Assembly: GCA_903879335.1 (NCBI GenBank)
Contig: CAIRLC010000031.1
Coordinates: 1-64,000, forward strand
Source of the DNA: an uncultured Pseudomonadota bacterium
GTDB taxonomy: Bacteria; Pseudomonadota; Gammaproteobacteria; Steroidobacterales; Steroidobacteraceae
Direction: 5' to 3'
Length of the DNA stretch: 64,000 nt
Every line of letters starts with the position of its first letter. Position 1 is the stretch's first letter. The position numbers and the translations under genes were made by a program. Shown in pieces: positions 1,896-36,593 of the stretch. The notes beneath the pieces are model-generated. The model did not search any database and had not been told where the DNA came from. It saw nothing but the letters and a program-made list of their open reading frames with translations.

Positions 1896-1916
1896 TTTTC
1901 ACACGGTTTTCACACG
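1896..1916. repeat. Tandem TTTTCACACG repeats beside tRNA-Val
   Basis: TTTTCACACG occurs at 1896-1905 and again at 1907-1916, a period of 11 nt, about 55 bases from the 3' end of tRNA-Val. Short direct repeats at helical spacing near an attachment site are typical of the arm-type sites bound by tyrosine integrases. Similar 11-nt-period repeats occur beside the other integration site in this window (18137-18155). The function is inferred. Confidence 0.4.
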
Positions 1917-2044: not shown

Positions 2045-2066
2045 GCCATGTGCGGAGAAGCCCGCG

Positions 2067-2095
2067 AGTTTACGGATCTTCGATCTCAACCGCAA
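2067..2095 (-). promoter_or_regulatory. Candidate promoter for tRNA-Val
   Basis: On the minus strand TTGCGG (2090-2095) and TAAACT (2067-2072) are separated by 17 nt. A GC-rich discriminator follows, ahead of the tRNA 5' end at 2044, as is common for stringently controlled tRNA promoters. The -35 is only a partial match. Confidence 0.4.
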
Positions 2096-2172
2096 TCACT
2101 GTGTGCAGGGTCACGATCCACGGCCGTAGCGGGTCTGGTAAAGTCTTCTCCCCTTTTGAATTGAGCCTCACC

Positions 2173-3573
2173 GTGACCGTCAGAACCCGTTTTGCCCCAA
2201 GTCCTACCGGCATGCTGCATATTGGCGGCGTACGGACCGCTCTATTTTCTTGGCTGTATGCCCGGCGCCATGGGGGCGAATTCATCCTACGCGTTGAGGA
2301 TACCGATCGAGAACGGTCAACCGATGAGGCTGTCCAAGTCATATTAGACGGCATGGAATGGCTCGGACTCACACCTGACGAGGGTCCGTTCTATCAGACC
2401 AAACGATACGACCGTTATCACGAGGTGATTGGTCACTTTCTTGCCGCCGGTCACGCTTATCACTGCTATTGCTCAAAGGCAGAGCTGGATGACATGCGGG
2501 CGCAGCAGATGGCCCGTAAGGAAAAGCCGCGTTACGACGGTCGCTGCCGTCATCGCCCCGCACCGCTGGAGGGCGTGACGCCGGTCGTGCGTTTTCGCAA
2601 TCCGGATGAGGGACAGGTCGTCGTGAATGATGTCGTGCACGGGCCGATCGTGTTCGACAGTCAGGAGCTCGATGATCTGATCATTCTGCGCTCCGACGGT
2701 AATCCGACCTACAATTTCTGCGTGGCGGTCGATGACTGGGATATGGGCATCACCCACGTGATCCGCGGCGACGATCACATCAATAACACGCCGCGCCAGA
2801 TCAACATGCTACGCGCCATGGGCGCTACGCCACCGGTGTATGCGCATCTACCCATGATTTTAGGTCCGGATGGCACCAAGCTGTCGAAGCGCCACGGCGC
2901 GGTGAGCGTGCTCGAATATAAGAACGCGGGTTTCCTGCCGGAAGCGCTGCTCAATTATCTGGGACGCCTGGGCTGGTCGCACGGCGATCAAGAACTCTTC
3001 AGCATCGACGAGTTGATTCAGTTCTTCGATCTGGATGCCGTGAACAAGTCCGCATCGGCGCTCAACCCAGACAAGCTGGCGTGGACCAACCAACAGCACA
3101 TGATGCGGCGCAGCGGCAGTGAACTCGCGCCACGGCTGGCCACAGTGCTGGCGGAGCGGGGCGTATCGGTGGGTGCGATGGATCTGGCGGCGATTGCTGA
3201 TTGCCTTAAGGAGCGTGCCAAGACTTTGGTCGAGATGGCCGACGGTGCCGCCTTCTTCTTCGCGGATCCAACAACCTATGATGCGAAGGCTGCGGCGAAG
3301 AACCTGAATGCTGAAACTGCTCCGGTACTCGTTGAGGCTCGATCGGCGCTGGCCGCGTTGGAGGAGCCTTGGACGGCGGCTTCGGTACACGGGGTTTTGG
3401 ATGCACTCGTGGCCAAGCTCGGCGTGGGCTTGGGTAAGGTGGCGCAGCCGCTACGCGTGTCGGTGGCCGGAAGCGGCGTGTCGCCGCCGATCGACGCGAC
3501 GCTTGCGATTTTGGGTGCGGAGGCGACCCTGCGGCGCATCGATCGCGCGATTGGTTTTGCCGTCACGAATTAG
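2173..3573 (+). CDS. gltX: Glutamate--tRNA ligase
   Basis: Charges tRNA-Glu with glutamate in the cytoplasm (class I aminoacyl-tRNA synthetase). The N-terminus TVRTRFAPSPTGMLHIGG contains the HIGH-type motif, and DGTKLSKRHG near residue 240 is the KMSKS-type loop that binds ATP. A CYC and H cluster near residues 100-125 resembles the zinc-binding insert. I start at GTG 2173, which gives 466 residues, the family's usual length. The frame stays open upstream, but that part has no family similarity and covers the promoter region. The next genes are tRNA-Ala and tRNA-Glu, so the enzyme sits beside its own substrate. Confidence 0.96.
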   Translation: MTVRTRFAPSPTGMLHIGGVRTALFSWLYARRHGGEFILRVEDTDRERSTDEAVQVILDGMEWLGLTPDEGPFYQTKRYDRYHEVIGHFLAAGHAYHCYCSKAELDDMRAQQMARKEKPRYDGRCRHRPAPLEGVTPVVRFRNPDEGQVVVNDVVHGPIVFDSQELDDLIILRSDGNPTYNFCVAVDDWDMGITHVIRGDDHINNTPRQINMLRAMGATPPVYAHLPMILGPDGTKLSKRHGAVSVLEYKNAGFLPEALLNYLGRLGWSHGDQELFSIDELIQFFDLDAVNKSASALNPDKLAWTNQQHMMRRSGSELAPRLATVLAERGVSVGAMDLAAIADCLKERAKTLVEMADGAAFFFADPTTYDAKAAAKNLNAETAPVLVEARSALAALEEPWTAASVHGVLDALVAKLGVGLGKVAQPLRVSVAGSGVSPPIDATLAILGAEATLRRIDRAIGFAVTN

Positions 3574-24917: not shown

Positions 24918-24951
24918 CGGTAATCTAAGTGTCACATTACTTAGGTCTAAT
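24918..24951 (+). promoter_or_regulatory. PhoB box and -10 upstream of phoB
   Basis: CGGTAAT-CTAA-GTGTCAC (24918-24935) fits the 7-4-7 PhoB box (CTGTCAT-AWAW-CTGTCAY), with 6 of 7 matches in the second half. After a 10-nt spacer comes TCTAAT (24946-24951), a 5/6 match to the -10. No -35 is needed in such promoters. It implies autoregulation of phoBR. The same spacing appears at three other sites in this locus. Confidence 0.65.
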
Positions 24952-24980: not shown

Positions 24981-25676
24981 ATGACCGCACGTCGAATTTT
25001 GATCGTTGAAGACGAAAAGCCGATCCGCGATATGATCGCTTTCGGTCTGCGGCGTGCAGGATTTGACGTCACCGAAGCCGAGGATACCCGGGCGGCTCGT
25101 ACCGCGATTGCGGACGCCCGTCCGGATCTGATTTTGGTTGATTGGATGCTGCCCGATGCCAGTGGTCTCGAACTCACCCGCGCGATCAAGAAGGACAAGG
25201 ACACCAAAGAGGTGCCGGTCATCATGCTTACCGCCCGGGCCGAGGAGCAGGATAAAGTGGCGGGGCTGGAGGGAGGCGCAGATGACTACGTCACCAAGCC
25301 GTTCTCACCGCGCGAGTTACTGGCCCGCATTAACGCTGTGCTGCGTCGCTCATCGACGGTCAGCACTGAGGAAGTCATTGACGCGGGCCAACTGCGCTTG
25401 GATGCCGCCGGTCACCGGGTGCTGTGTGGTGAGGCCACGGTTGCGCTCGGACCGACCGAATACCGGCTGTTGTCATTTTTCATCACTCACGCCGAACGGG
25501 TCTATACGCGCAGTCAGTTGTTGGACCGCGTTTGGGGTGGCAATGTCTATGTGGAAGAGCGCACGGTGGATGTGCATATCCGCCGCCTGCGTAAAGCCTT
25601 GGAGGCATTTGGCTGCGACGCTTATGTTCAGACTGTTCGCGGCTCCGGGTATCGATTCTCGACCCGTTCACTCTAA
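24981..25676 (+). CDS. phoB: Phosphate regulon response regulator PhoB
   Basis: A 231-residue OmpR-type regulator. The receiver (1-120) has phospho-acceptor Asp in [13 protein letters not shown], and [10 protein letters not shown] is present. The winged-helix effector (~130-230) contains [30 protein letters not shown] and [14 protein letters not shown], typical of PhoB. Phosphorylated by PhoR in low phosphate, it binds Pho boxes and recruits sigma-70 polymerase. A good candidate Pho box lies upstream. The neighbours phoR, pstS, phoU and pstCAB settle the assignment. Confidence 0.96.
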
Positions 25677-25694: not shown

Positions 25695-26993
25695 GTGACC
25701 ACTGCCGTCTGGAAGTCCGCGCTGCCGAGGTTGCTGACGGTTATTCTGATCGCCCTGCTGGTCGGCTTGGCGACCGGCTATGCCGCCGTGGCAATCGGCG
25801 TGGCGTTGGCCGGCACACTGGGCCTTAACTACTACCGCCTGCATTTACTGGAGCAATGGCTGCGACATCGTCGCCAGCTCGATCCGCCCGATTTATCGGG
25901 TCCTTGGGGCGATGTCGTCGCGCTGATTGTCCGCATCTATCAGCGTAAGAAGTACCACAAGAAGCGGATGTTGGAGGTGGTACGAGAGTTCAGGGAACTC
26001 ACCTCTGCCTTGCCGGACGGCATTGTGGTGTTGACCGGCGATCGGGTGATTCAGTGGTTTAACCCGCGCGCGGGCCGAATGTTAGGGTTGCGGCGCAAGG
26101 TCGATTTCGGTCATCGGATCGATAACTTGGTGCGCAATCCTGATTTTCAAAATTACCTCGATAAAGGCGATTACTCCTATCCGGTCGTGATTCGGAAGTT
26201 GACCAGCACGGACGTGCATTTGTCGCTGCAAATGGTCGACTACGGAAAGGGGCAGAAGTTACTGGCCGTGCGCGATGTGAGTCGCGAGATCTTGGTCGAA
26301 GCGATGCGCAAGGATTTCGTTGCGAACGCATCTCATGAATTACGCTCGCCACTGACGGTCATCGTCGGATATGTGGATACGCTGGCCGATGATCCGCTCT
26401 TGGATTCTGATGTGCGACTCGCGTTGCAGGAAATGCGACGTCAGTCGGCGCGGATGCAGGCTGTGGTGGACGATCTCATCGAATTGTCTCGTCTCGAGTC
26501 CGGCGCGTCCGAAGCGCCTTACGTCTTTGTGGACGTGGCAGGCTTACTCAGTCTCATGAAGCGCGATGTGTTGGCTAGACCTCAGCGGACTTGTGAATTT
26601 ATCTATGAGGAGGAGTCGGAAGAGGGGCTCTTGGGCGCCGAATCTGAGCTGCACTCCATCTTCTCCAACTTGATTGGTAATGCGATCAAGTACACGCCAG
26701 CGATCGGTGGTCGCGTGATCGCTCGTTGGTGGACCGACGCGACGGGCGGACATTTCTCCGTGTCGGATTCGGGCGTTGGGATCGCGCCGGAGCACATTCC
26801 ACGACTCACCGAACGTTTCTACCGAGTGGATCCTGGTCGCTCAAGAGACTCTGGCGGTTCGGGTCTTGGGCTGTCGATCGTGAAGCATGCGCTACAGCGT
26901 CACGGCGGCACTTTGCATATTGAAAGCACGGAAGGAGTGGGCAGTCGCTTTCAGTGTGATTTCCCTGAGTCCCGCTTGGCCCGACGAGGCTGA
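25695..26993 (+). CDS. phoR: Phosphate regulon sensor kinase PhoR
   Basis: A 432-residue inner-membrane kinase with the PhoR layout. Two N-terminal TM helices (~13-47) have almost no periplasmic loop. A short charged linker, a PAS domain (~95-190, VREFRELTSALPDGIVVL), HisKA (FVANASHELRSPLTVIVGYVDTL, with the phospho-histidine) and HATPase (NLIGNAIKYTP, DSGVGIAPEHI, GSGLGLSIVKHAL) follow. It begins at GTG 25695, 18 nt after phoB. It controls PhoB according to signals relayed from PstSCAB through PhoU. Confidence 0.95.
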   Translation: MTTAVWKSALPRLLTVILIALLVGLATGYAAVAIGVALAGTLGLNYYRLHLLEQWLRHRRQLDPPDLSGPWGDVVALIVRIYQRKKYHKKRMLEVVREFRELTSALPDGIVVLTGDRVIQWFNPRAGRMLGLRRKVDFGHRIDNLVRNPDFQNYLDKGDYSYPVVIRKLTSTDVHLSLQMVDYGKGQKLLAVRDVSREILVEAMRKDFVANASHELRSPLTVIVGYVDTLADDPLLDSDVRLALQEMRRQSARMQAVVDDLIELSRLESGASEAPYVFVDVAGLLSLMKRDVLARPQRTCEFIYEEESEEGLLGAESELHSIFSNLIGNAIKYTPAIGGRVIARWWTDATGGHFSVSDSGVGIAPEHIPRLTERFYRVDPGRSRDSGGSGLGLSIVKHALQRHGGTLHIESTEGVGSRFQCDFPESRLARRG

Positions 26994-27016: not shown

Positions 27017-27061
27017 CTGAAGCATTAGCGTCATAGTCGTGTCAACCCGGCACGGCAGCAT
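27017..27061 (+). promoter_or_regulatory. Candidate tandem PhoB boxes upstream of plcP
   Basis: Three 7-mers with 4-nt spacers: CTGAAGC-ATTA-GCGTCAT-AGTC-GTGTCAA (27017-27045). The second and third end in GTCA(T/A), like the PhoB half-site. Exactly 10 nt later is CAGCAT (27056-27061), a weak -10. The register is the same as at phoB, pstS and pstC, which supports PhoB control, though the -10 is poor and plcP could also be reached from phoR. Confidence 0.45.
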
Positions 27062-27092
27062 AGGTCATCCAAGCTGCTCGAAAGAGGACACG

Positions 27093-27920
27093 ATGACACG
27101 CAGAGCTTCTCCTAAGGGTCGCGTACGTACGGTTTTTATTTCCGACGTTCACTTGGGCTTTCGCGGTTGCCAAGCAGAACTGCTCCTCGATTTCCTTCGT
27201 GGGGTAGATACAGAAAAATTAGTGCTGGTTGGCGACATTGTCGATTTATGGAGCTTGAAGCGTAGTTTTTTCTGGCCCTCCCAGCACCAAGAGGTTTTGC
27301 GTGAGATTTTGCGCATGGCTCGCAGCGGGATTGAGGTGATCTACGTGCCTGGGAACCACGATGAGGGTTTTCGAGAACTCTGTGGCGGTCGCCTTGAAGG
27401 CATTGATATCCGTCGTGACTTTATCCACGAAACGGCGAACGGCCAGCGCTACTTGGTGGTGCATGGCGATGAGTTCGATGGCAACGTTAAATTTGCCGGC
27501 TGGTTGAAGTGGATTGGCGAGCACCTCTACGATTTTATCCTCTGGCTCAGCCGCTCGGTCCAAGACATCAGGCATCGGTTCGGCTACGGCTATTGGTCGT
27601 TATCAAATTGGATCAAAGACCAAGTGCCGGATGCCCGCCGCTACATCAGCCGCTTCGAGCACGCGGCGGCTACGGCCGCGCTGCGTCACGGCCTCGATGG
27701 TGTGATTTGCGGTCATATCCACCACCCCGGTATTCGTGAAGTGGATGGCGTACGCTATTGCAACGACGGCGACTGGGTGGAGAATTGCTCCATGCTGTAT
27801 GAGGATCAGGCCGGTCAACTGCACGTTGGATTTCATCATTCAGCGGCAGACAGCGGTCTGCGCCCGGAAGAGGGAGCGATCAAAGCGGTCGAAGCGATGG
27901 CCTATGACGAGGCGGCCTAA
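27093..27920 (+). CDS. plcP: PlcP-type phospholipase C (calcineurin-like metallophosphoesterase)
   Basis: A 275-residue binuclear metallophosphoesterase. The metal ligands are in SDVHLG, VGDIVDLW, PGNHDE, VHGDEFD and CGHIHHPGI, followed by NDGDWVENCS. This arrangement, with the GYWSLSNWIKDQV block, is that of the family often annotated as UDP-2,3-diacylglucosamine diphosphatase-like. Its studied members (PlcP) cut phospholipids to diacylglycerol in phosphate starvation. It has a good ribosome site (AAAGAGGA) before ATG 27093. A glycosyltransferase gene follows after 5 nt and the pair lies between phoR and pstS, which favours lipid remodelling over lipid A synthesis. No biochemical proof can come from sequence. 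Confidence 0.8.
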   Translation: MTRRASPKGRVRTVFISDVHLGFRGCQAELLLDFLRGVDTEKLVLVGDIVDLWSLKRSFFWPSQHQEVLREILRMARSGIEVIYVPGNHDEGFRELCGGRLEGIDIRRDFIHETANGQRYLVVHGDEFDGNVKFAGWLKWIGEHLYDFILWLSRSVQDIRHRFGYGYWSLSNWIKDQVPDARRYISRFEHAAATAALRHGLDGVICGHIHHPGIREVDGVRYCNDGDWVENCSMLYEDQAGQLHVGFHHSAADSGLRPEEGAIKAVEAMAYDEAA

Positions 27921-27925
27921 GCGTT

Positions 27926-29005
27926 ATGCGTATCGCGATTGTCACCGATGCTTGGAGTCCACAGACGAACGGGGTGGTCACCACCTTGCAACGGACGGTC
28001 GCTGATCTCAAATCCTTTGGTCACGACGTCCGGGTGCTGAACCCGCATGGTTCTTGGACCATGCCATGCCCGACTTATCCTGAGATCCGCTTGGCGCCTT
28101 TCGCCAGGTCGCGCGTGAGGCAGTTCTTAGATGAGTTTTCCCCCGAGGCCCTGCATATCGCGACAGAAGGTCCGCTCGGGGTCTGGGCTAGGGCCTACGC
28201 GGTTGGTCGAGGCAGATCGTTTACCACCTCGTATCACACGCAGTTTCCTCAGTATATCCGGGCTCGATTGCCGATCCCGGAAGCTGTGACCTACGCGTAC
28301 CTGCGCTGTTTCCACTCGCGCGCGACGCGTGTCATGGTGGGGACTGAGGAAATGCGGCGCGATCTACGCTTGCACGGATTTAGGCGAGTGGTACCTTGGA
28401 CTCGTGGGGTCGACACCACGCTCTTTCATCCGTCGTCCACGCCTGAGACCCGCGCAGTCCCCGAGTTGCTTTACGTAGGCCGGGTTTCGGTCGAAAAGAG
28501 TGTTGAGGACTTCTGCCGCCTTGATGTGCCGTCTCGCAAAGTAGTGGTGGGGGATGGGCCCGATCTCGTGATGCTGCGGCGGCGCTACCCGGAGGTCCAG
28601 TTTCGTGGCTATCTGTACGGCGAAGCACTGGCTGCCGCGTATCGGTCGGCGGACTGCTTTGTATTCGCCAGTCGCACGGACACCTTTGGTCTCGTGATGC
28701 TTGAGGCCATGGCCAGTGGAGTGCCGGTCGCCGCTTATCCAGTCACCGGACCGCTCGATGTGGTGCAACACGGCGTGAGTGGGTGGTTGGATCATGACCT
28801 GCGGGCGGCCGTATTGGGGGCCCTCACCTTGGATCGGACGGCTTGTCGGCGCCAAGCGCTGGAGTACAGTTGGGAACGTGCGTCTCGCCAATTTGAGTCC
28901 AATCTGGTCGAGTTCCGCACCTTGCCCGCGCGACGTGCAGCAAGGCGCCAAATGGCGGCAAAGTTGCGGCCAAATCAACGCCGCTCACCAACCGGTCAGA
29001 TGTAA
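27926..29005 (+). CDS. GT4 glycosyltransferase, probable diacylglycerol glycosyltransferase (Agt)
   Basis: A 359-residue GT-B fold family 4 glycosyltransferase. TDAWSPQTNGVVTTLQ at the N-terminus, TSYHTQFPQYI, LLYVGRVSVEKSVEDF (nucleotide-sugar domain) and FVFASRTDTFGLVMLEAMASGVPVAA (E-x7-E region) match the MgtA/Agt group. Agt enzymes add glucose or glucuronate to diacylglycerol released by PlcP, giving phosphorus-free glycolipids. It is 5 nt after plcP and upstream of pstS. Alternative substrates, such as mannosyl lipids or LPS, remain possible because sugar specificity is not readable here. Confidence 0.75.
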   Translation: MRIAIVTDAWSPQTNGVVTTLQRTVADLKSFGHDVRVLNPHGSWTMPCPTYPEIRLAPFARSRVRQFLDEFSPEALHIATEGPLGVWARAYAVGRGRSFTTSYHTQFPQYIRARLPIPEAVTYAYLRCFHSRATRVMVGTEEMRRDLRLHGFRRVVPWTRGVDTTLFHPSSTPETRAVPELLYVGRVSVEKSVEDFCRLDVPSRKVVVGDGPDLVMLRRRYPEVQFRGYLYGEALAAAYRSADCFVFASRTDTFGLVMLEAMASGVPVAAYPVTGPLDVVQHGVSGWLDHDLRAAVLGALTLDRTACRRQALEYSWERASRQFESNLVEFRTLPARRAARRQMAAKLRPNQRRSPTGQM

Positions 29006-29087: not shown

Positions 29088-29149
29088 GATTTTAGGTAGG
29101 TTGACGATCCCTTTTCGTCTCACTCAACCCCGAATTATTGGAGATCACT

Positions 29150-30199
29150 GTGCTTAAGCGCTCAATTCTTGCTCTTTCCTTGGTTGGTCTGTCGGTATCC
29201 AGCGTATCGCTGGCCGATGGTGGCCGTGATTACGTGGCCTTGGCCGGCTCGTCCACGGTATTTCCGTTCGCGTCGGCGGTGGCCGAGCACTTCGGTAAGG
29301 CGAATCCCAAGTTCAAGACCCCTAAAGTGGAAAGCACGGGCACCGGTGGCGGTATCAAGCTGTTCTGCGGCGGCGTTGGCGTCCAGTACCCGGACATCGC
29401 CAATGCGTCGCGCCGCATCAAGGCCGGCGAGTTAGAGACCTGTGCTTCGAACGGCGTGAAAGACGTCGTTGAAGTGAAGATCGGCTACGACGGCATCACC
29501 ATCGCCACGAAGAAGGGCGCGCCAGCCTTCAAGCTGACCCGCAAAGAATTGTACTTGGCGCTGGCCAAGCAGGTTCCAGACCCGCGTGATTCCAACAATC
29601 TGATCACGAATCCGTACAAGACCTGGAAGCAGGTCGATGCGTCTCTGCCGGATCTCCCAATCCAGGTCTTCGGTCCTGGTCCAAACCACGGCACCCGTGA
29701 CGCCTTTGCGGAACTCGTGTTGACCAATGGCTGCGAGTCCTACGCCTGGATCAAAGCCCTCAAGGAAGTGGACGATAGGCGCTTTGCCAAGGTCTGCACG
29801 CAGGTTCGCGAAGACGGCGCTTGGACCGACGTCTCGGAAGATTACGCCTTGGTTCTCAGCAAGTTGCAGTCCAACCCGACGGCGGTCGCCGTGTTCACGT
29901 TCTCCTACCTCGATCAAAACGGCGACAAGATTTCTGCCGCCACGGTTGAAGGCAAGGCGCCCACTTTTGCGACGATCGCGGATGGCTCCTACCCACTTTC
30001 GCGTCCTCTGTACTTCTATGTGAAGAAGGCGCACGTTGGCGTGATCCCGGGCATCACGGAGTTTGTTGCTGAATTCCTTAGCGACAAGGCCATGGGTGCT
30101 GATGGTTACCTCGCCGAGCGTGGCTTGATCACGATGAAGCCATCTGAGTTGGCCAAATCGCGTAAGGATGCGAACGATCTGCGAGCTGTCCGCCTCTAA
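29150..30199 (+). CDS. pstS: Phosphate-binding periplasmic protein PstS
   Basis: A 349-residue solute-binding protein of the high-affinity phosphate ABC transporter. A signal peptide (to ~22, cleavage after SLA) is followed by AGSSTVFPFASAVAEHF (phosphate-binding loop), ESTGTGGGIKLFC and GPNHGTRDAFAELVL. Several cysteines (CGG, ETC, GCES, VCT) suggest disulphides, which fits the nearby dsbB. I start at GTG 29150, 6 nt after GGAG; a TTG at 29138 is less likely. It has its own Pho box and a strong terminator, so it forms a single-gene unit apart from pstCAB. Confidence 0.94.
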   Translation: MLKRSILALSLVGLSVSSVSLADGGRDYVALAGSSTVFPFASAVAEHFGKANPKFKTPKVESTGTGGGIKLFCGGVGVQYPDIANASRRIKAGELETCASNGVKDVVEVKIGYDGITIATKKGAPAFKLTRKELYLALAKQVPDPRDSNNLITNPYKTWKQVDASLPDLPIQVFGPGPNHGTRDAFAELVLTNGCESYAWIKALKEVDDRRFAKVCTQVREDGAWTDVSEDYALVLSKLQSNPTAVAVFTFSYLDQNGDKISAATVEGKAPTFATIADGSYPLSRPLYFYVKKAHVGVIPGITEFVAEFLSDKAMGADGYLAERGLITMKPSELAKSRKDANDLRAVRL

Positions 30200-30395: not shown

Positions 30396-31118
30396 ATGGA
30401 CGCTAATACACTCGGCCCGCACATTTCGCGCCGGTTCAACGAGGATCTCGAGAAGCTGCGCACACACGTGCTGCAAATGGGCGGACTCGTCGAGCAGCAG
30501 ATGTCTGACGCCGTTGTGGCGCTCGTTGACGGCAATGGTGCGCTCGCGGACGAAGTGAGCCGCAATGACCATCGTGTCAACGCGATGGAAGTGGCTATTG
30601 ACGAGGAATGCAGTCGTATCTTGGCCACCCGTGCCCCGGCGGCCTCCGACCTGCGCTTGATTGTTGCGATTATCAAGACCATTACCGATCTCGAGCGCAT
30701 TGGCGATGAGGCGGAGAAGGTGGGCTATATCGCGGCGCGCCTGGCGTTGATGGAGCGGCCTGTGGGGCGATATCGGGAAATTAAAAACCTGGGCCGTCTG
30801 GTGCACCAAATGTTGCATTCGGCTCTGGATGCGTTCGCCCGCCTTGATGCCGAAGCTGCGCTCAACATCGTCCAAGATGATCGAATCATCGATGAAGAGT
30901 ACGACGCGATCCAACGCCAGTGCATCACCTTCATGATGGAAGATCCCCGTACGATCACACGGTCAATTGAGGTCCTCTGGGTCTCACGCGCGCTTGAGCG
31001 AATTGGCGATCACGCAAAAAATATCTGCGAATACGTGGTCTTCATGGTGCACGGCAAGGATATCCGGCATACGGCGCAAACCGATTCCAAGCGCAATAAT
31101 TTGGGCACCGTCCTTTGA
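30396..31118 (+). CDS. phoU: Phosphate signalling protein PhoU
   Basis: A 240-residue all-helical protein made of two PhoU repeats. The first contains the metal-binding VNAMEVAIDEECSRILATRAPAASDLRLI and ITDLERIGDEAEKVG; the second has EEYDAIQRQC and VSRALERIGDHAKNICEYVVFMV. PhoU links the Pst transporter to PhoR and keeps the regulon off in high phosphate. Here it lies after pstS and away from pstCAB. dsbB overlaps its stop. Start ATG 30396 has a GGAGG 8 nt upstream. Confidence 0.95.
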   Translation: MDANTLGPHISRRFNEDLEKLRTHVLQMGGLVEQQMSDAVVALVDGNGALADEVSRNDHRVNAMEVAIDEECSRILATRAPAASDLRLIVAIIKTITDLERIGDEAEKVGYIAARLALMERPVGRYREIKNLGRLVHQMLHSALDAFARLDAEAALNIVQDDRIIDEEYDAIQRQCITFMMEDPRTITRSIEVLWVSRALERIGDHAKNICEYVVFMVHGKDIRHTAQTDSKRNNLGTVL

Positions 31119-31624
31119 TGGCGATCACGCGTCGGATGATCAATGGCGCTGGCCTCGCCGGCGTCATGGCTCTCATGGCTGGCGCCCTGGTCTTTCAGCA
31201 TGTGCTGAAGCTGAATCCATGCAATATGTGCATGCTGCAGCGGGGCGCTACCTTGCTATTGGGCGCCGTATTTCTGGTCGCCCTGGTGCACGATGCAGGA
31301 CGTATCGGTGCACGGATCTATGGTCTACTGATCTTGATCGCAGCCGCCGGATTGGTCGCGTTGTCGGCTCGACATGTCTGGATGCAGATGCAGCCATTGG
31401 GCAGCTTGGCGTCTTGCGGCGCGGACTTCTGGACCATGGTCGACATGTTGCCGCCGTTGGAAGTCGTCAGCCGAATCGTCAATGGCGGTGGCGACTGCCA
31501 GGAAATTGGCTGGTCCTTATTCGGTCTCTCCATCCCGGCTTGGTTGGGGATCGCGGCGTCGCTCCTGGGTGTGGGCGGACTATGGGGTAACTTCCGTTTG
31601 CCGCCGGCTAACGGACGACCTTAA
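31118..31624 (+). CDS. dsbB: Disulphide bond formation protein B
   Basis: A 168-residue inner-membrane quinone reductase that reoxidises periplasmic DsbA. It has four TM helices. The first cysteine pair is in LNPCNMCMLQR after TM1, and the second, periplasmic, pair is in ASCGADF and GGDCQEIGW. Start ATG 31118 overlaps the phoU stop (TGATG), so it is cotranslated with phoU. Being part of a phosphate operon is unusual for dsbB. A link to folding of disulphide-rich phosphate-scavenging proteins is possible. No dsbA is in the window. Confidence 0.92.
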   Translation: MAITRRMINGAGLAGVMALMAGALVFQHVLKLNPCNMCMLQRGATLLLGAVFLVALVHDAGRIGARIYGLLILIAAAGLVALSARHVWMQMQPLGSLASCGADFWTMVDMLPPLEVVSRIVNGGGDCQEIGWSLFGLSIPAWLGIAASLLGVGGLWGNFRLPPANGRP

Positions 31625-33012: not shown

Positions 33013-34401
33013 ATGCAGAGTTCTACGGTTGTCGTTGTCATTGTGCTGCTCGCGAGTTTTGCCTACCAGTGGGCCCGTCGGCGCTCCATAAATTTGGTGG
33101 GGGGGACCCGGGGCGTTCGTAATCTCCATTCCTTGCCCGCCTATTACGGTATGTACGTCGCCTTGTGGTGCGCACTACCGGCGCTGGCTTTACTGGGGCT
33201 TTGGCACCTTTTCGGTGATCGCGTCATCCTGCAAATGGTGTTGGCGCAGATGCCGACCGAATTTCAGCATCTCCAGGCCGGCGAGGCAGGCTTGGTTTTG
33301 AATGACATCCGAAACGTGGTGTCGGGCGCTGTCCCTGCTGAGATGGCGCGGCCCGCTGTGGTTGCTGCGGCTCAGCACTGGCGCCAATTGAGCCACCAGG
33401 GCGATTTGGTCGGTGCCGTCCTGGCCTTTTCGTCGGCCATTGTGGTGGGCTTCCTTGCACTGCGCTCCGTCAAGCCTGAAATGCGCGCGCGCAATCAGGT
33501 GGAAAAGATTGCCGAATGGGCGCTGCTGGCGTGTTCGGGCGTGGCCGTACTGACGACGATCGGGATCATCGTTTCGGTCTTGTACGAAGCGATGCACTTC
33601 TTCCACTTTGTATCCCCGATCGAGTTTTTGTTCGGTACCACGTGGAGCCCACAGATCGCGATGCGGGCGGACCAGGTGGGGTCGTCCGGCGCCTTTGGCG
33701 CGGTACCGCTTTTTACGGGCACGCTGCTGATCGCGGGAATCGCTTTGCTCGTTTCGGTGCCGGTGGGCCTGTTCTCCGCGATTTATCTGGCGGAATACGC
33801 CGCTCGCGGCGTCAGGACGGTGGTCAAGCCACTGCTGGAGATTCTGGCGGGTATTCCGACCGTTGTTTATGGCTTCTTTGCGGCCATGACGGTGGGACCG
33901 TTGCTGCGCATTTTGGGTGAGCGATTGGGCCTCGTCGTTGCCTCCGAGAGTGCCCTGTCGGCAGGCCTCGTCATGGGAATCATGATCATCCCCTTCGTTT
34001 CATCACTCGCGGACGACATGATCACTGCGGTGCCGCAATCGTTGCGTGATGGTGCTTATGCCTTAGGTGCAACCCGTTCGGAAACGATCCGAAATGTGGT
34101 CTTGCCAGCAGCGCTGCCCGGTATTGTGGGCGGTGTGCTCTTAGCAGCTTCGCGCGCGATCGGCGAAACGATGATCGTGGTCATGGCGGCCGGTTTGGCC
34201 GCCAATTTGACCGCCAACCCATTCGAGGCCGTGACAACGGTTACGGTACAAATTGCCACCTTGCTGGTGGGCGATTCTGAGTTCGACAGCCCGAAGACTT
34301 TGGCGGCATTTGCGCTTGGTCTGGTGCTGTTCTTTGTGACACTCGCTCTGAATATCGTGGCTCTTAAAGTCGTGCGTAAATATCGAGAGCAGTATGACTA
34401 A
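33013..34401 (+). CDS. pstC: Phosphate ABC transporter permease PstC
   Basis: A 462-residue inner-membrane permease, longer than the ~320 residues of E. coli PstC. The extra N-terminal ~150 residues add TM segments and a soluble stretch (the long PstC variant common outside enterics). The conserved core includes FLFGTTWSP, GAFGAVPLFTGTLLI, VPVGLFSAIYLAEYA, EILAGIPTVVYGFFA, PQSLRDGAYALGATRSET (the EAA-type loop that docks to PstB) and AASRAIGETMIVVMAAG. It overlaps pstA by 8 nt. A PhoB box lies upstream. Confidence 0.93.
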   Translation: MQSSTVVVVIVLLASFAYQWARRRSINLVGGTRGVRNLHSLPAYYGMYVALWCALPALALLGLWHLFGDRVILQMVLAQMPTEFQHLQAGEAGLVLNDIRNVVSGAVPAEMARPAVVAAAQHWRQLSHQGDLVGAVLAFSSAIVVGFLALRSVKPEMRARNQVEKIAEWALLACSGVAVLTTIGIIVSVLYEAMHFFHFVSPIEFLFGTTWSPQIAMRADQVGSSGAFGAVPLFTGTLLIAGIALLVSVPVGLFSAIYLAEYAARGVRTVVKPLLEILAGIPTVVYGFFAAMTVGPLLRILGERLGLVVASESALSAGLVMGIMIIPFVSSLADDMITAVPQSLRDGAYALGATRSETIRNVVLPAALPGIVGGVLLAASRAIGETMIVVMAAGLAANLTANPFEAVTTVTVQIATLLVGDSEFDSPKTLAAFALGLVLFFVTLALNIVALKVVRKYREQYD

Positions 34402-35698
34402 TCTCGTTGGATCAACGGCCAAGTCGTCCAGTCAGGCGAAGGTCGCAGCGTCGCTGCGACGTCGCTACGCCGCAGAATTGCGCTTCCGGGCCTACGGTAT
34501 TGTCGCGATCGCGATCGGTCTTGCCTTCGTTGTGTTCTTGTTTTCTTCGATCATTTCGAAGGGCTACACCTCATTCCAACAAACGTACCTCGCGGTCGAT
34601 ATCGACTACGCCGCCGATACGATTGATCCGGAGGGCACTCGGCTCCCTGACACGCTGTCCGCTGCGGATTATCAAGCGGTCATCAAGGCTTCGTTACGTG
34701 CTCAGTTTCCGAACGTGGAGGGGCGGGCGTCGCTTCGCCATCTGTACGGCTTGGTCAGCAACGCCGCGGAAACCACGCTACGCGATCAGGTTGTGAGCGA
34801 TCCGAAGTTGATCGGCAGTCACCAGCGGATCTGGCTACTGGCAGACGATCATGTGGATTCCTTTATCAAGGGCCAGATCGATCGAAAACTGCCGGAGTCG
34901 GATCGTCCGATATCCGATGAAGAAATAGCCTGGTTGGATGCGCTGAAGGCCAAGCATGGGGTAGAGACCAAGTTCAACCTCGCATTCTTTACCTCAGGTG
35001 ATTCTCGCGAGCCAGAGCAGGCCGGTGTTGCTGGCGCATTGGCCGGTAGTGCGCTGACGTTGATTGTCACGCTGATCTTGTCGTTCCCCATCGGGGTTGC
35101 AGCGGCGATTTACTTGGAAGAATTCGCGCCGCGAAATTTTTGGACCGACGTCATTGAAGTGAACATCAATAACTTGGCGGCCGTTCCCTCCATCGTGTTC
35201 GGTTTGCTCGGCTTGGCGATGTTCATTCAATTCTTCGGTTTGCCACGGTCAGCGCCGCTCGTCGGCGGACTGGTGCTCTCGTTGATGACCTTGCCGACGA
35301 TCATCATTGCCGGTCGCGCTTCTTTGAAGGCCGTTCCGCCGTCCATTCGTGAGGCGGCTTTAGGTATGGGCGCATCTCGAATGCAGACCGTGGCCCATCA
35401 TGTCTTACCACTCGCGCTGCCTGGAATGCTGACCGGAACCATCATCGGTATGGCGCGTGCCTTGGGCGAAAGCGCGCCGTTGTTGATGATCGGTATGGTG
35501 GCCTTCATCGTTGATGTGCCGCATGGACTTTCCGATCCAGCGACGGCGCTGCCGGTACAAATTTATCTTTGGGCTCGCAGCCCTGAGCGCGCCTTTGTGG
35601 AGCGGACCTCGGGCGCCATTATGGTATTGCTTGGGTTCTTACTCCTCATGAATGCCGTGGCTGTGGTGCTGCGTAATCGTTTCGAGCGTCGTTGGTAG
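34394..35698 (+). CDS. pstA: Phosphate ABC transporter permease PstA
   Basis: A 434-residue permease, again the long form. After TM1 a ~170-residue periplasmic insert (DYAADTIDPEGTRLPD ... SGDSREPEQAGVAGAL) precedes the conserved core: FPIGVAAAIYLEEFAPRN, NNLAAVPSIVFGLLGLA, PPSIREAALGMGASRMQT (docking loop) and ARALGESAPLLMIG. With PstC it forms the membrane channel. The start overlaps pstC by 8 nt and pstB follows after 16 nt. Confidence 0.94.
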   Translation: MTNLVGSTAKSSSQAKVAASLRRRYAAELRFRAYGIVAIAIGLAFVVFLFSSIISKGYTSFQQTYLAVDIDYAADTIDPEGTRLPDTLSAADYQAVIKASLRAQFPNVEGRASLRHLYGLVSNAAETTLRDQVVSDPKLIGSHQRIWLLADDHVDSFIKGQIDRKLPESDRPISDEEIAWLDALKAKHGVETKFNLAFFTSGDSREPEQAGVAGALAGSALTLIVTLILSFPIGVAAAIYLEEFAPRNFWTDVIEVNINNLAAVPSIVFGLLGLAMFIQFFGLPRSAPLVGGLVLSLMTLPTIIIAGRASLKAVPPSIREAALGMGASRMQTVAHHVLPLALPGMLTGTIIGMARALGESAPLLMIGMVAFIVDVPHGLSDPATALPVQIYLWARSPERAFVERTSGAIMVLLGFLLLMNAVAVVLRNRFERRW

Positions 35699-35714
35699 GA
35701 TATAGAGACAATTT

Positions 35715-36593
35715 ATGACCATCGAAAAGCACCAGCACGTGACCGAAGTTTCCCGAAGCGTCGTCTTCAATGAGTCGGATCATTCGTCGCCAGGAGAACA
35801 GGTGGATACGAAGACCGTAGGCCAAGTGACCGTCGACTCGCCGGTCATCAGCGCGCGACATGTGAACGTCCATTACGGCGAGAAGCACGCGATCAAGGAC
35901 GTCAGCATTGACGTCGCTAAAAACGCGGTGATCGCCTTCATCGGCCCCTCGGGCTGCGGTAAGTCGACGTTCCTACGTTGCCTGAACCGTATGAATGACA
36001 CGATCCCCAATGCCAAGGTCACCGGATCGATCACGCTGGATGGCAGTGATATCTACGATCGTTCGCAAGACATCGTGCAGCTGCGTGCGCGCGTCGGTAT
36101 GGTCTTCCAAAAGCCTAACCCCTTCCCCAAATCAATCTATGAGAACGTCGCCTATGGCCCACGGATTCATGGATTGGCGGGTACCCGTGCGGACTTGGAC
36201 GACATGGTGCAGTCCTCCTTGCGTAAGGCGGGTCTCTGGGAAGAGGTGAAGGATCGCCTCGATAATCCCGGCACGGGTCTTTCGGGTGGTCAGCAGCAGC
36301 GCTTGTGTATTGCCCGCGCGATCGCCGTCGACCCTGAAGTGATTCTGATGGACGAACCGTGTTCAGCCTTGGATCCAATTGCGACTGCAAAAGTTGAGGA
36401 TCTTATCGACGAGCTGCGTGAAAACTATGCCATCGTGATCGTCACCCACAGTATGCAGCAGGCGGCCCGAGTGTCGCAGCGCACTGCATACTTCCATCTG
36501 GGCGACCTTATTGAAGTGGGTCCCACCGAACAAATCTTTACGAATCCGGTACACAAGTTGACCGAAGACTACATCACCGGCCGATTCGGTTAA
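35715..36593 (+). CDS. pstB: Phosphate ABC transporter ATP-binding protein PstB
   Basis: A 292-residue ABC ATPase. Walker A is GPSGCGKST, the signature is [14 protein letters not shown], Walker B is [13 protein letters not shown] and the switch histidine is in [33 protein letters not shown] is diagnostic of PstB. About 35 extra residues at the N-terminus precede the usual start of the domain. An alternative start nearer [19 protein letters not shown] is conceivable. It is the last gene of pstCAB, and phoU is not downstream as it is in E. coli. Confidence 0.96.

Follow-up and report, generated by a model that had tools for sequence, protein, structure and literature searches.

Between the phosphate-sensing genes phoBR and the phosphate-binding gene pstS of the window (the whole 64,000-nucleotide stretch of DNA analysed here), two adjacent genes for a metallophosphoesterase and a GT4 glycosyltransferase are found. 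This raises the question of whether the pair is a PlcP-Agt membrane-lipid remodelling operon that has been built into the phosphate-sensing locus, as the original prediction proposed. We consider it highly probable that it is.

Gene order of the Pho locus

The window belongs to a draft genome of 3.14 Mb in 46 contigs, which is 97% complete. The features of the locus are as follows.

24918..24935, + strand: Pho box-like site before phoB (PWM score 13.4 bits, 63 nt ahead of the ATG)
24981..25676, + strand: phoB, response regulator (TIGR02154 PhoB, 348 bits; cut-off 296)
25695..26993, + strand: phoR, sensor kinase (TIGR02966, 371 bits; cut-off 334; PF11808 PhoR)
27028..27045, + strand: Pho box-like site GCGTCATAGTCGTGTCAA before plcP (9.3 bits, starting 65 nt before the ATG)
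27093..27920, + strand: plcP, predicted PlcP-type metallophosphoesterase (phospholipase C), 275 aa (identity to PlcP copies, tree, motifs)
27926..29005, + strand: agt, predicted GT4 diacylglycerol glycosyltransferase, 359 aa (identity to Agt1; 14 of 14 checked residues)
29138..30199, + strand: pstS, phosphate-binding protein, start at 29138 or 29150 (PF12849; position in the Pho locus)
30396..31118, + strand: phoU (PF01895)
33013-34401, + strand: pstC-type transporter gene (PF12501 and PF00528)
34394-35698, + strand: pstA-type transporter gene (PF11812 and PF00528)
35715-36593, + strand: pstB-type transporter gene (PF00005)

The order on the + strand is thus phoB, phoR, plcP, agt, pstS, phoU and dsbB, and the pstC-, pstA- and pstB-type genes come later, behind an opposite-strand M20 peptidase (dapE-like) gene that lies between dsbB and the pstC-type gene. 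The names of the three transporter genes (33013..36593) were given from their domains, their order and the locus, and PstS scored 145.7 bits with TIGR02136, under its cut-off of 206.6. The ATG of plcP at 27093 lies 99 nt past the end of phoR, its stop codon occupies 27918-27920, and the ATG of agt at 27926 leaves a gap of 5 nt. The coordinates, profile matches and strands all agree with the proposed placement of the pair between phoBR and pstS. The span given for the pair, 27017..29005, ends with agt; position 27017 falls in the phoR-plcP gap with the Pho box region, and plcP itself starts at 27093. The DsbB gene (31115-31624) directly follows phoU, and 10 of 37 family loci show this phoU-dsbB adjacency.

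Identity of the hydrolase

Judged by its sequence, the hydrolase is PlcP and not LpxH. The window protein is 46.5% identical to PlcP of P. aeruginosa and 42.9% to that of S. meliloti, as against 21.8% to LpxH of E. coli. The P. aeruginosa sequence comes from strain HPA0698, where the gene is carried by a plasmid, and the S. meliloti sequence from strain Ak57 (record name pSymB); both were accepted as the studied genes by their neighbours and their mutual identity of 46.6%, not by accession, and the text of PMC8528852 gives 46% for the two proteins. In a PlcP tree of 75 rows (L169, L171 and the near-duplicates L098, L061, L059, L073, L068 and L072 left out), all 12 LpxH proteins were united in a single clade with 100/100 support; on the other side of this split lay the window protein, along with PlcP of P. 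aeruginosa and of S. meliloti.

The calcineurin-type metal-binding motifs DxH, GDxxD, GNHD, HGD and GHxH were all found in the window protein. LpxH (UDP-2,3-diacylglucosamine diphosphatase) shares the metallophosphoesterase fold with it, but carries GNRD, GHTH and HGDxLC where PlcP has GNHD, GHIH and HGDxFD. GNHD was present in 69 of 69 PlcP rows and GNRD in 12 of 12 LpxH rows; GHIH was found in 68 of the 69 PlcP rows (one row gave no GHxH match), as was HGDxFD, with HGDQLE in the remaining row.

The LpxH model TIGR01854 gave the window protein 37.2 bits, far from its cut-off of 190.35, and its matches listed at plcP places in family genomes lay at 25-48 bits. A different gene on contig C19, which scored 268 bits, is the genome's own LpxH gene, and it sits behind a cyclophilin (PF00160) gene, as lpxH does behind ppiB in E. 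coli. LpxH scored above the cut-off in 56 of the 60 family genomes; among the other four, G057 had it in sub-cut-off pieces and TIGR01854 found none in three. Of the seven PF00149 proteins encoded in the genome, none but the window protein gave a match to window PlcP at E 1e-20, so that no second plcP was detected at this threshold in the 97% complete draft. Neither a grouping with true LpxH nor, at E 1e-20, a separate plcP elsewhere, which together the original prediction named as being at odds with it, was observed.

It had also been expected that PlcP would normally be annotated as LpxH. Among 24 matching plasmid-collection records, 19 were named UDP-2,3-diacylglucosamine diphosphatase, and the remaining five showed no listed gene; automatic annotation hides PlcP under the LpxH name. 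An Agt-PlcP fusion, considered for L057 and L059 from an apparent open frame of 610 aa, was rejected because its translation has a stop between the two genes.

Identity of the glycosyltransferase

The glycosyltransferase has the sequence characters of an Agt-like enzyme. Its identity to Agt1 of P. aeruginosa (the copy of strain HPA0698) amounts to 49.2%. For GTcp of the SAR11 strain HTCC7211, the text of PMC8231724 describes 14 residues at which mutation removed activity or lowered it strongly. All 14 are kept in window Agt, namely G16, G82, G85, H104, T159, R160, R186, K191, D252, T253, F254, G255, E260 and W316 in window numbering, the positions having been carried over from the published description by motif and spacing, not by alignment to the GTcp sequence. 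The TDT motif with its D was found in 57 of 59 Agt-group rows, and the pattern was not found in two. In a tree of 52 of 77 rows, which had been thinned by script and contained several long outgroup branches, the split between Agt and other GT4 proteins received 90/89, under the starred level, and the window protein was placed with Agt. L155, a contig-end Agt that had been filed as other by its score, also landed on the Agt side.

The genome encodes a UDP-sugar dehydrogenase (TIGR03026, 476 bits), which makes UDP-glucuronate plausible. By analogy with characterised enzymes, window Agt may synthesise MGDG or GADG.

Recurrence of the phoBR-plcP linkage

The position of plcP in the Pho locus is a conserved arrangement and not a one-off. 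A sample of 60 genomes of the family, probably Steroidobacteraceae, was surveyed, and PlcP was found at E 1e-20 in 38 of them. In 15 of the 37 other family loci, phoB and/or phoR lay within 5 kb of plcP; agt was directly downstream of plcP in 14, phoU was within 5 kb in nine and pstS in five. These counts are lower bounds, as some contigs end near plcP. The survey of relatives called for by the original prediction thus gave a recurrent linkage in the family and an occasional one outside it.

Among the best 80 named plcP loci, agt was directly downstream in 48 and phoBR nearby in five; four of these five loci lie on contigs that the family count also includes, and L080, the remaining one, clusters with the window's genus. 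In the class sample, PlcP was detected at E 1e-50 in 78 of 276 genomes, and 76 loci were outside the family. Of the latter, 34 had agt directly downstream and five had phoBR within 5 kb. Three of these five belong to one genus and show the order phoB-phoR-plcP-agt followed by a second glycosyltransferase gene (GT2, described below) on the - strand, with phoU further on in two; of the remaining loci, one has phoR 3.9 kb upstream and one has phoBR on the other strand. On the 75-row PlcP tree, the Pho-locus state was clustered and required 2-3 changes, with L082, whose contig begins at dsbB, labelled by kinship and dsbB adjacency.

The two genes also occur together. With PlcP at E 1e-20 and Agt at E 1e-40, 30 of the 60 family genomes had both, 13 had one and 17 had neither (Fisher p 2.7e-5); eight of the 38 plcP genomes lacked Agt at this threshold. 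Within the text searches of the open-licence literature, no report of the phoBR-plcP-agt-pst layout was found.

Some other neighbourhoods were encountered in the survey. Four family members in which plcP lies away from the Pho locus (L048, L049, L064 and L067) carry another OmpR-family response regulator gene, 36-42% to PhoB, immediately ahead of plcP. An opposite-strand pstS follows plcP-agt in L089, L102 and L152 (titled Phenylobacterium and Robiginitomaculum), which is another approach of the pair to phosphate transport genes. L138 (= L068) is titled Candidatus Planktophila lacus but has a Steroidobacteraceae-type Pho locus and is assigned to G035 of the window's family, and the title looks mislabelled.

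Predicted Pho boxes

Direct control of the pair by PhoB had been proposed as well. For scoring, a PWM was refined on the plcP upstreams of 109 loci in other genomes, after five duplicate loci and those with less than 100 nt upstream were dropped; the window was excluded and its near relatives were included. At least 8 bits were reached by 87 of the 109 training upstreams, compared to 36-49 when shuffled upstreams were used for retraining; with a threshold of 4 bits, the PWM did no better on these upstreams than the retrained shuffles. Random 200-bp stretches reached 8 bits in 8.7% of cases. In the 76 class loci outside the family, which were not used in training and had no upstream resembling a training upstream, 57 reached 8 bits before plcP where about 8 were expected, and 32 reached 12 bits versus about 1.2-1.3 in shuffles.

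Compared with shuffles, the published Pho box consensus was enriched before plcP with a z of 15.6 in 79 named loci and of 7.8 in the 37 family loci (two of which, L072 and L078, were mis-sliced), and also before phoB (z 8.4, 12 loci) and pstS (z 4.3, 5 loci). No clear enrichment was seen before phoR (z -0.4), phoU (0.4), agt (1.7) and pstC (0.6). Among control upstreams scored with the PWM, those of agt scored at least 9.3 bits in 6 of 19 loci of the family and in 9 of 37 of the class, and those of pstC at least 8 bits in three of six.

Taken alone, the box before window plcP is modest: its 9.3 bits rank 17th among all window places, which is not significant, and the chance of such a score is about 0.024 per 200 bp. 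The plain consensus matched the window at 10 or more of 14 positions 19 times, where about 30 matches are expected by chance. A predicted Pho box at promoter distance, 65 nt before the ATG, is nonetheless present with comparative support. Weaker 11-bp repeats lie upstream of the box from 27006, and the plcP upstream is partly conserved in the alignment with L079 and L080. In the relatives L042, L080, L043 and L044, the best site before plcP scored 8.2-11.1 bits at 60-84 nt; the phylogenetic neighbours L045 (5.0 bits) and L046 (6.7 bits) had no good box there. L042-L046 and L080 all belonged to the training set of the PWM. The upstream of window pstS had no good Pho box (best 5.9 bits). A motif kept before plcP across genomes supports the predicted PhoB control of the pair, the box of the window being modest. 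The idea that boxes are weaker at phoR-adjacent plcP genes was dropped, as these did not differ from the others (p 0.45).

The top-scoring Pho box-like site of the window (1896-1913, + strand, 15.3 bits) is located left of a tRNA-Val gene (1970-2044, - strand) and a glutamyl/glutaminyl-tRNA synthetase gene (2050-3573, + strand), and may be due to chance.

Alternative explanations

Since PlcP and LpxH share a fold, the hydrolase could be an additional lipid A enzyme of the LpxH type, with the GT4 protein acting on lipopolysaccharide or another glycan, so that the pair would serve the making of envelope polysaccharide. The AlphaFold model of the window protein (mean pLDDT 83.5) resembles LpxH most strongly, the top 11 PDB matches all being LpxH, and its best NCBIfam matches are LpxH models, though far under their cut-offs; the fold alone therefore cannot separate PlcP from LpxH. 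What separates them is the clade of LpxH at 100/100 and the GNHD versus GNRD difference in all rows, and the genome already has its LpxH gene behind the cyclophilin gene. The Pho box and the co-occurrence of PlcP with Agt also argue against an envelope polysaccharide role, which we regard as very improbable.

The other alternative accepts a true PlcP-Agt pair but takes its place in the Pho locus as a neutral rearrangement, the genes having their own promoter or hardly responding to phosphate. It agrees with the modest box of the window, with the fact that most plcP genes are not beside phoBR (five of the best 80 named loci and five of the 76 class loci adjoin) and with a box strength that is independent of phoR adjacency (p 0.45). 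Against it, the linkage is repeated in 15 of the 37 other family loci, clusters on the PlcP tree and is also met in other families of the class, and L042, L080, L043 and L044 each have a box scoring 8 bits or more 60-84 nt before plcP. We consider a neutral position unlikely, and a remodelling operon that belongs functionally to the phosphate-sensing locus remains the favoured reading.

Proposed mechanism and relation to known systems

For this remodelling operon, gene identities, gene order, active-site residues and the conserved motif were read from the DNA and protein sequences. The enzyme activities, the induction, the read-through and the lipid change are proposed by analogy with work on P. 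aeruginosa, Methylosinus and SAR11, as described in the texts of PMC8528852, PMC9239053 and PMC4796936. In phosphate shortage, PhoR would phosphorylate PhoB, which would then activate the operon that encodes it as well as the promoter of plcP-agt, the latter through the Pho box before plcP; read-through from phoR may add to the expression of the pair, which would thus be induced by low phosphate. PlcP would remove the phosphate headgroup of membrane phospholipids and leave diacylglycerol, to which Agt would join the sugar of a UDP-sugar to give a glycolipid, and the phosphorus of the headgroups would be freed for other uses. PF13444 (OlsB-type; a stand-in for OlsB) and PF11899 (BtaA-type) had no match in the genome; therefore, glycolipids are the likely substitute lipid.

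The plcP-agt pair, its Pho box and a two-glycosyltransferase system are already known. In P. aeruginosa, plcP-agt1 (PA3219-PA3218) has agt directly after plcP and a Pho box before plcP, as in the window, and makes a glycolipid (text of PMC8528852). The same order is found on the plasmid record of strain HPA0698, but no phoBR or pst occurs in the 8.7 kb around that copy, in contrast to the window. Marine type 2 plcP-agt clusters (SAR11 HTCC7211 and Erythrobacter NAP1) likewise combine plcP with agt and predicted Pho boxes, and in E. coli the HTCC7211 Agt yields both MGDG and GADG; the text description of their context types does not mention phoBR adjacency (PMC4796936). In Methylosinus trichosporium OB3b, plcP is also upstream of agt, and deletion showed that plcP-agt is needed for GADG; no phoBR linkage was met in the text of PMC9239053, the term pst being absent from it and phoB appearing twice. 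The recurrence in the family and a second GT4 gene are additions beyond the original prediction. Phosphate-driven membrane remodelling would thereby extend to a gammaproteobacterial family, represented here mostly by draft metagenome genomes, with the remodelling genes built into the sensor-transporter locus.

A second glycosyltransferase gene

At E 1e-5, the genome has a single other match to Agt (34%), a GT4 gene on contig C22 that is unlinked to the Pho locus and is here called GT2. Its features are given below.

L182:5185-6333 (G000:C22, about 213184-214333), - strand: GT2, alpha-MGlcDAG-synthase-like GT4
L182:6383-6400, - strand: Pho box CTGTCACAGAAGCGTCAC of GT2 (19.4 bits, starting 67 nt before the start codon)

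Scored with the PWM, which was trained on plcP upstreams only, this is the highest-scoring Pho box among the scanned stretches of the genome, and a further repeat (10.0 bits) adjoins it. The best NCBIfam match of GT2 is alpha-monoglucosyldiacylglycerol synthase (124 bits, under the cut-off of 400), and its best PDB sequence matches are PimA.

The upstreams of GT2 orthologues were covered for 28 of 30 family loci, own included, and two further matches had no locus. A site of at least 12 bits preceded 13 of the 28 (own included), where 0.16 were expected, and all four GT2 genes of the window's genus had such a site at 63-67 nt. Since 14 of the 28 orthologues had no site of 8 bits, PhoB control of GT2 is not universal. 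In 12 of the 76 class loci, GT2 and plcP were no more than 5 kb apart. GT2 lies by plcP inside the Pho locus in genus g13 (L056, L060 and L061), and in L050 it is located on the upstream side of plcP. At E 1e-60, 25 of the 60 family genomes had GT2 together with plcP, 13 had plcP only, seven had GT2 only and 15 had neither (p 0.011). Either Agt or GT2 was present in 37 of the 38 plcP genomes versus 11 of the 22 others (p 2e-5). GT2 occurred in seven of the eight plcP genomes lacking Agt, which was not significant within the plcP genomes (p 0.15).

These sequence comparisons suggest that GT2 is probably part of the remodelling system as a second lipid glycosyltransferase. With its own Pho box, it probably makes a second glycolipid, as does Agt2 of P. 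aeruginosa (PA0842), an unlinked second glycosyltransferase with its own Pho box to which GT2 was likened by its description in the text of PMC8528852. We advance more tentatively, with slightly more doubt than belief, a system that is wired into the phosphate-sensing locus and has a second arm, in which a strongly PhoB-controlled GT2 of a separate family is able to replace Agt. If so, GT2 would represent a separate family of phosphate-starvation lipid glycosyltransferases. The GT2 family, in which Pho boxes are conserved, offers a concrete candidate for a second enzyme that makes glycolipid in phosphate starvation; for UGL, one such lipid of P. aeruginosa, the enzyme was still unknown in 2021 according to the text of PMC8528852. 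On the plasmid record NZ_CP020371.1 of Candidatus Thiodictyon syntrophicum (about 410725-412790), plcP and a relative of GT2 (58%) are adjacent on opposite strands.
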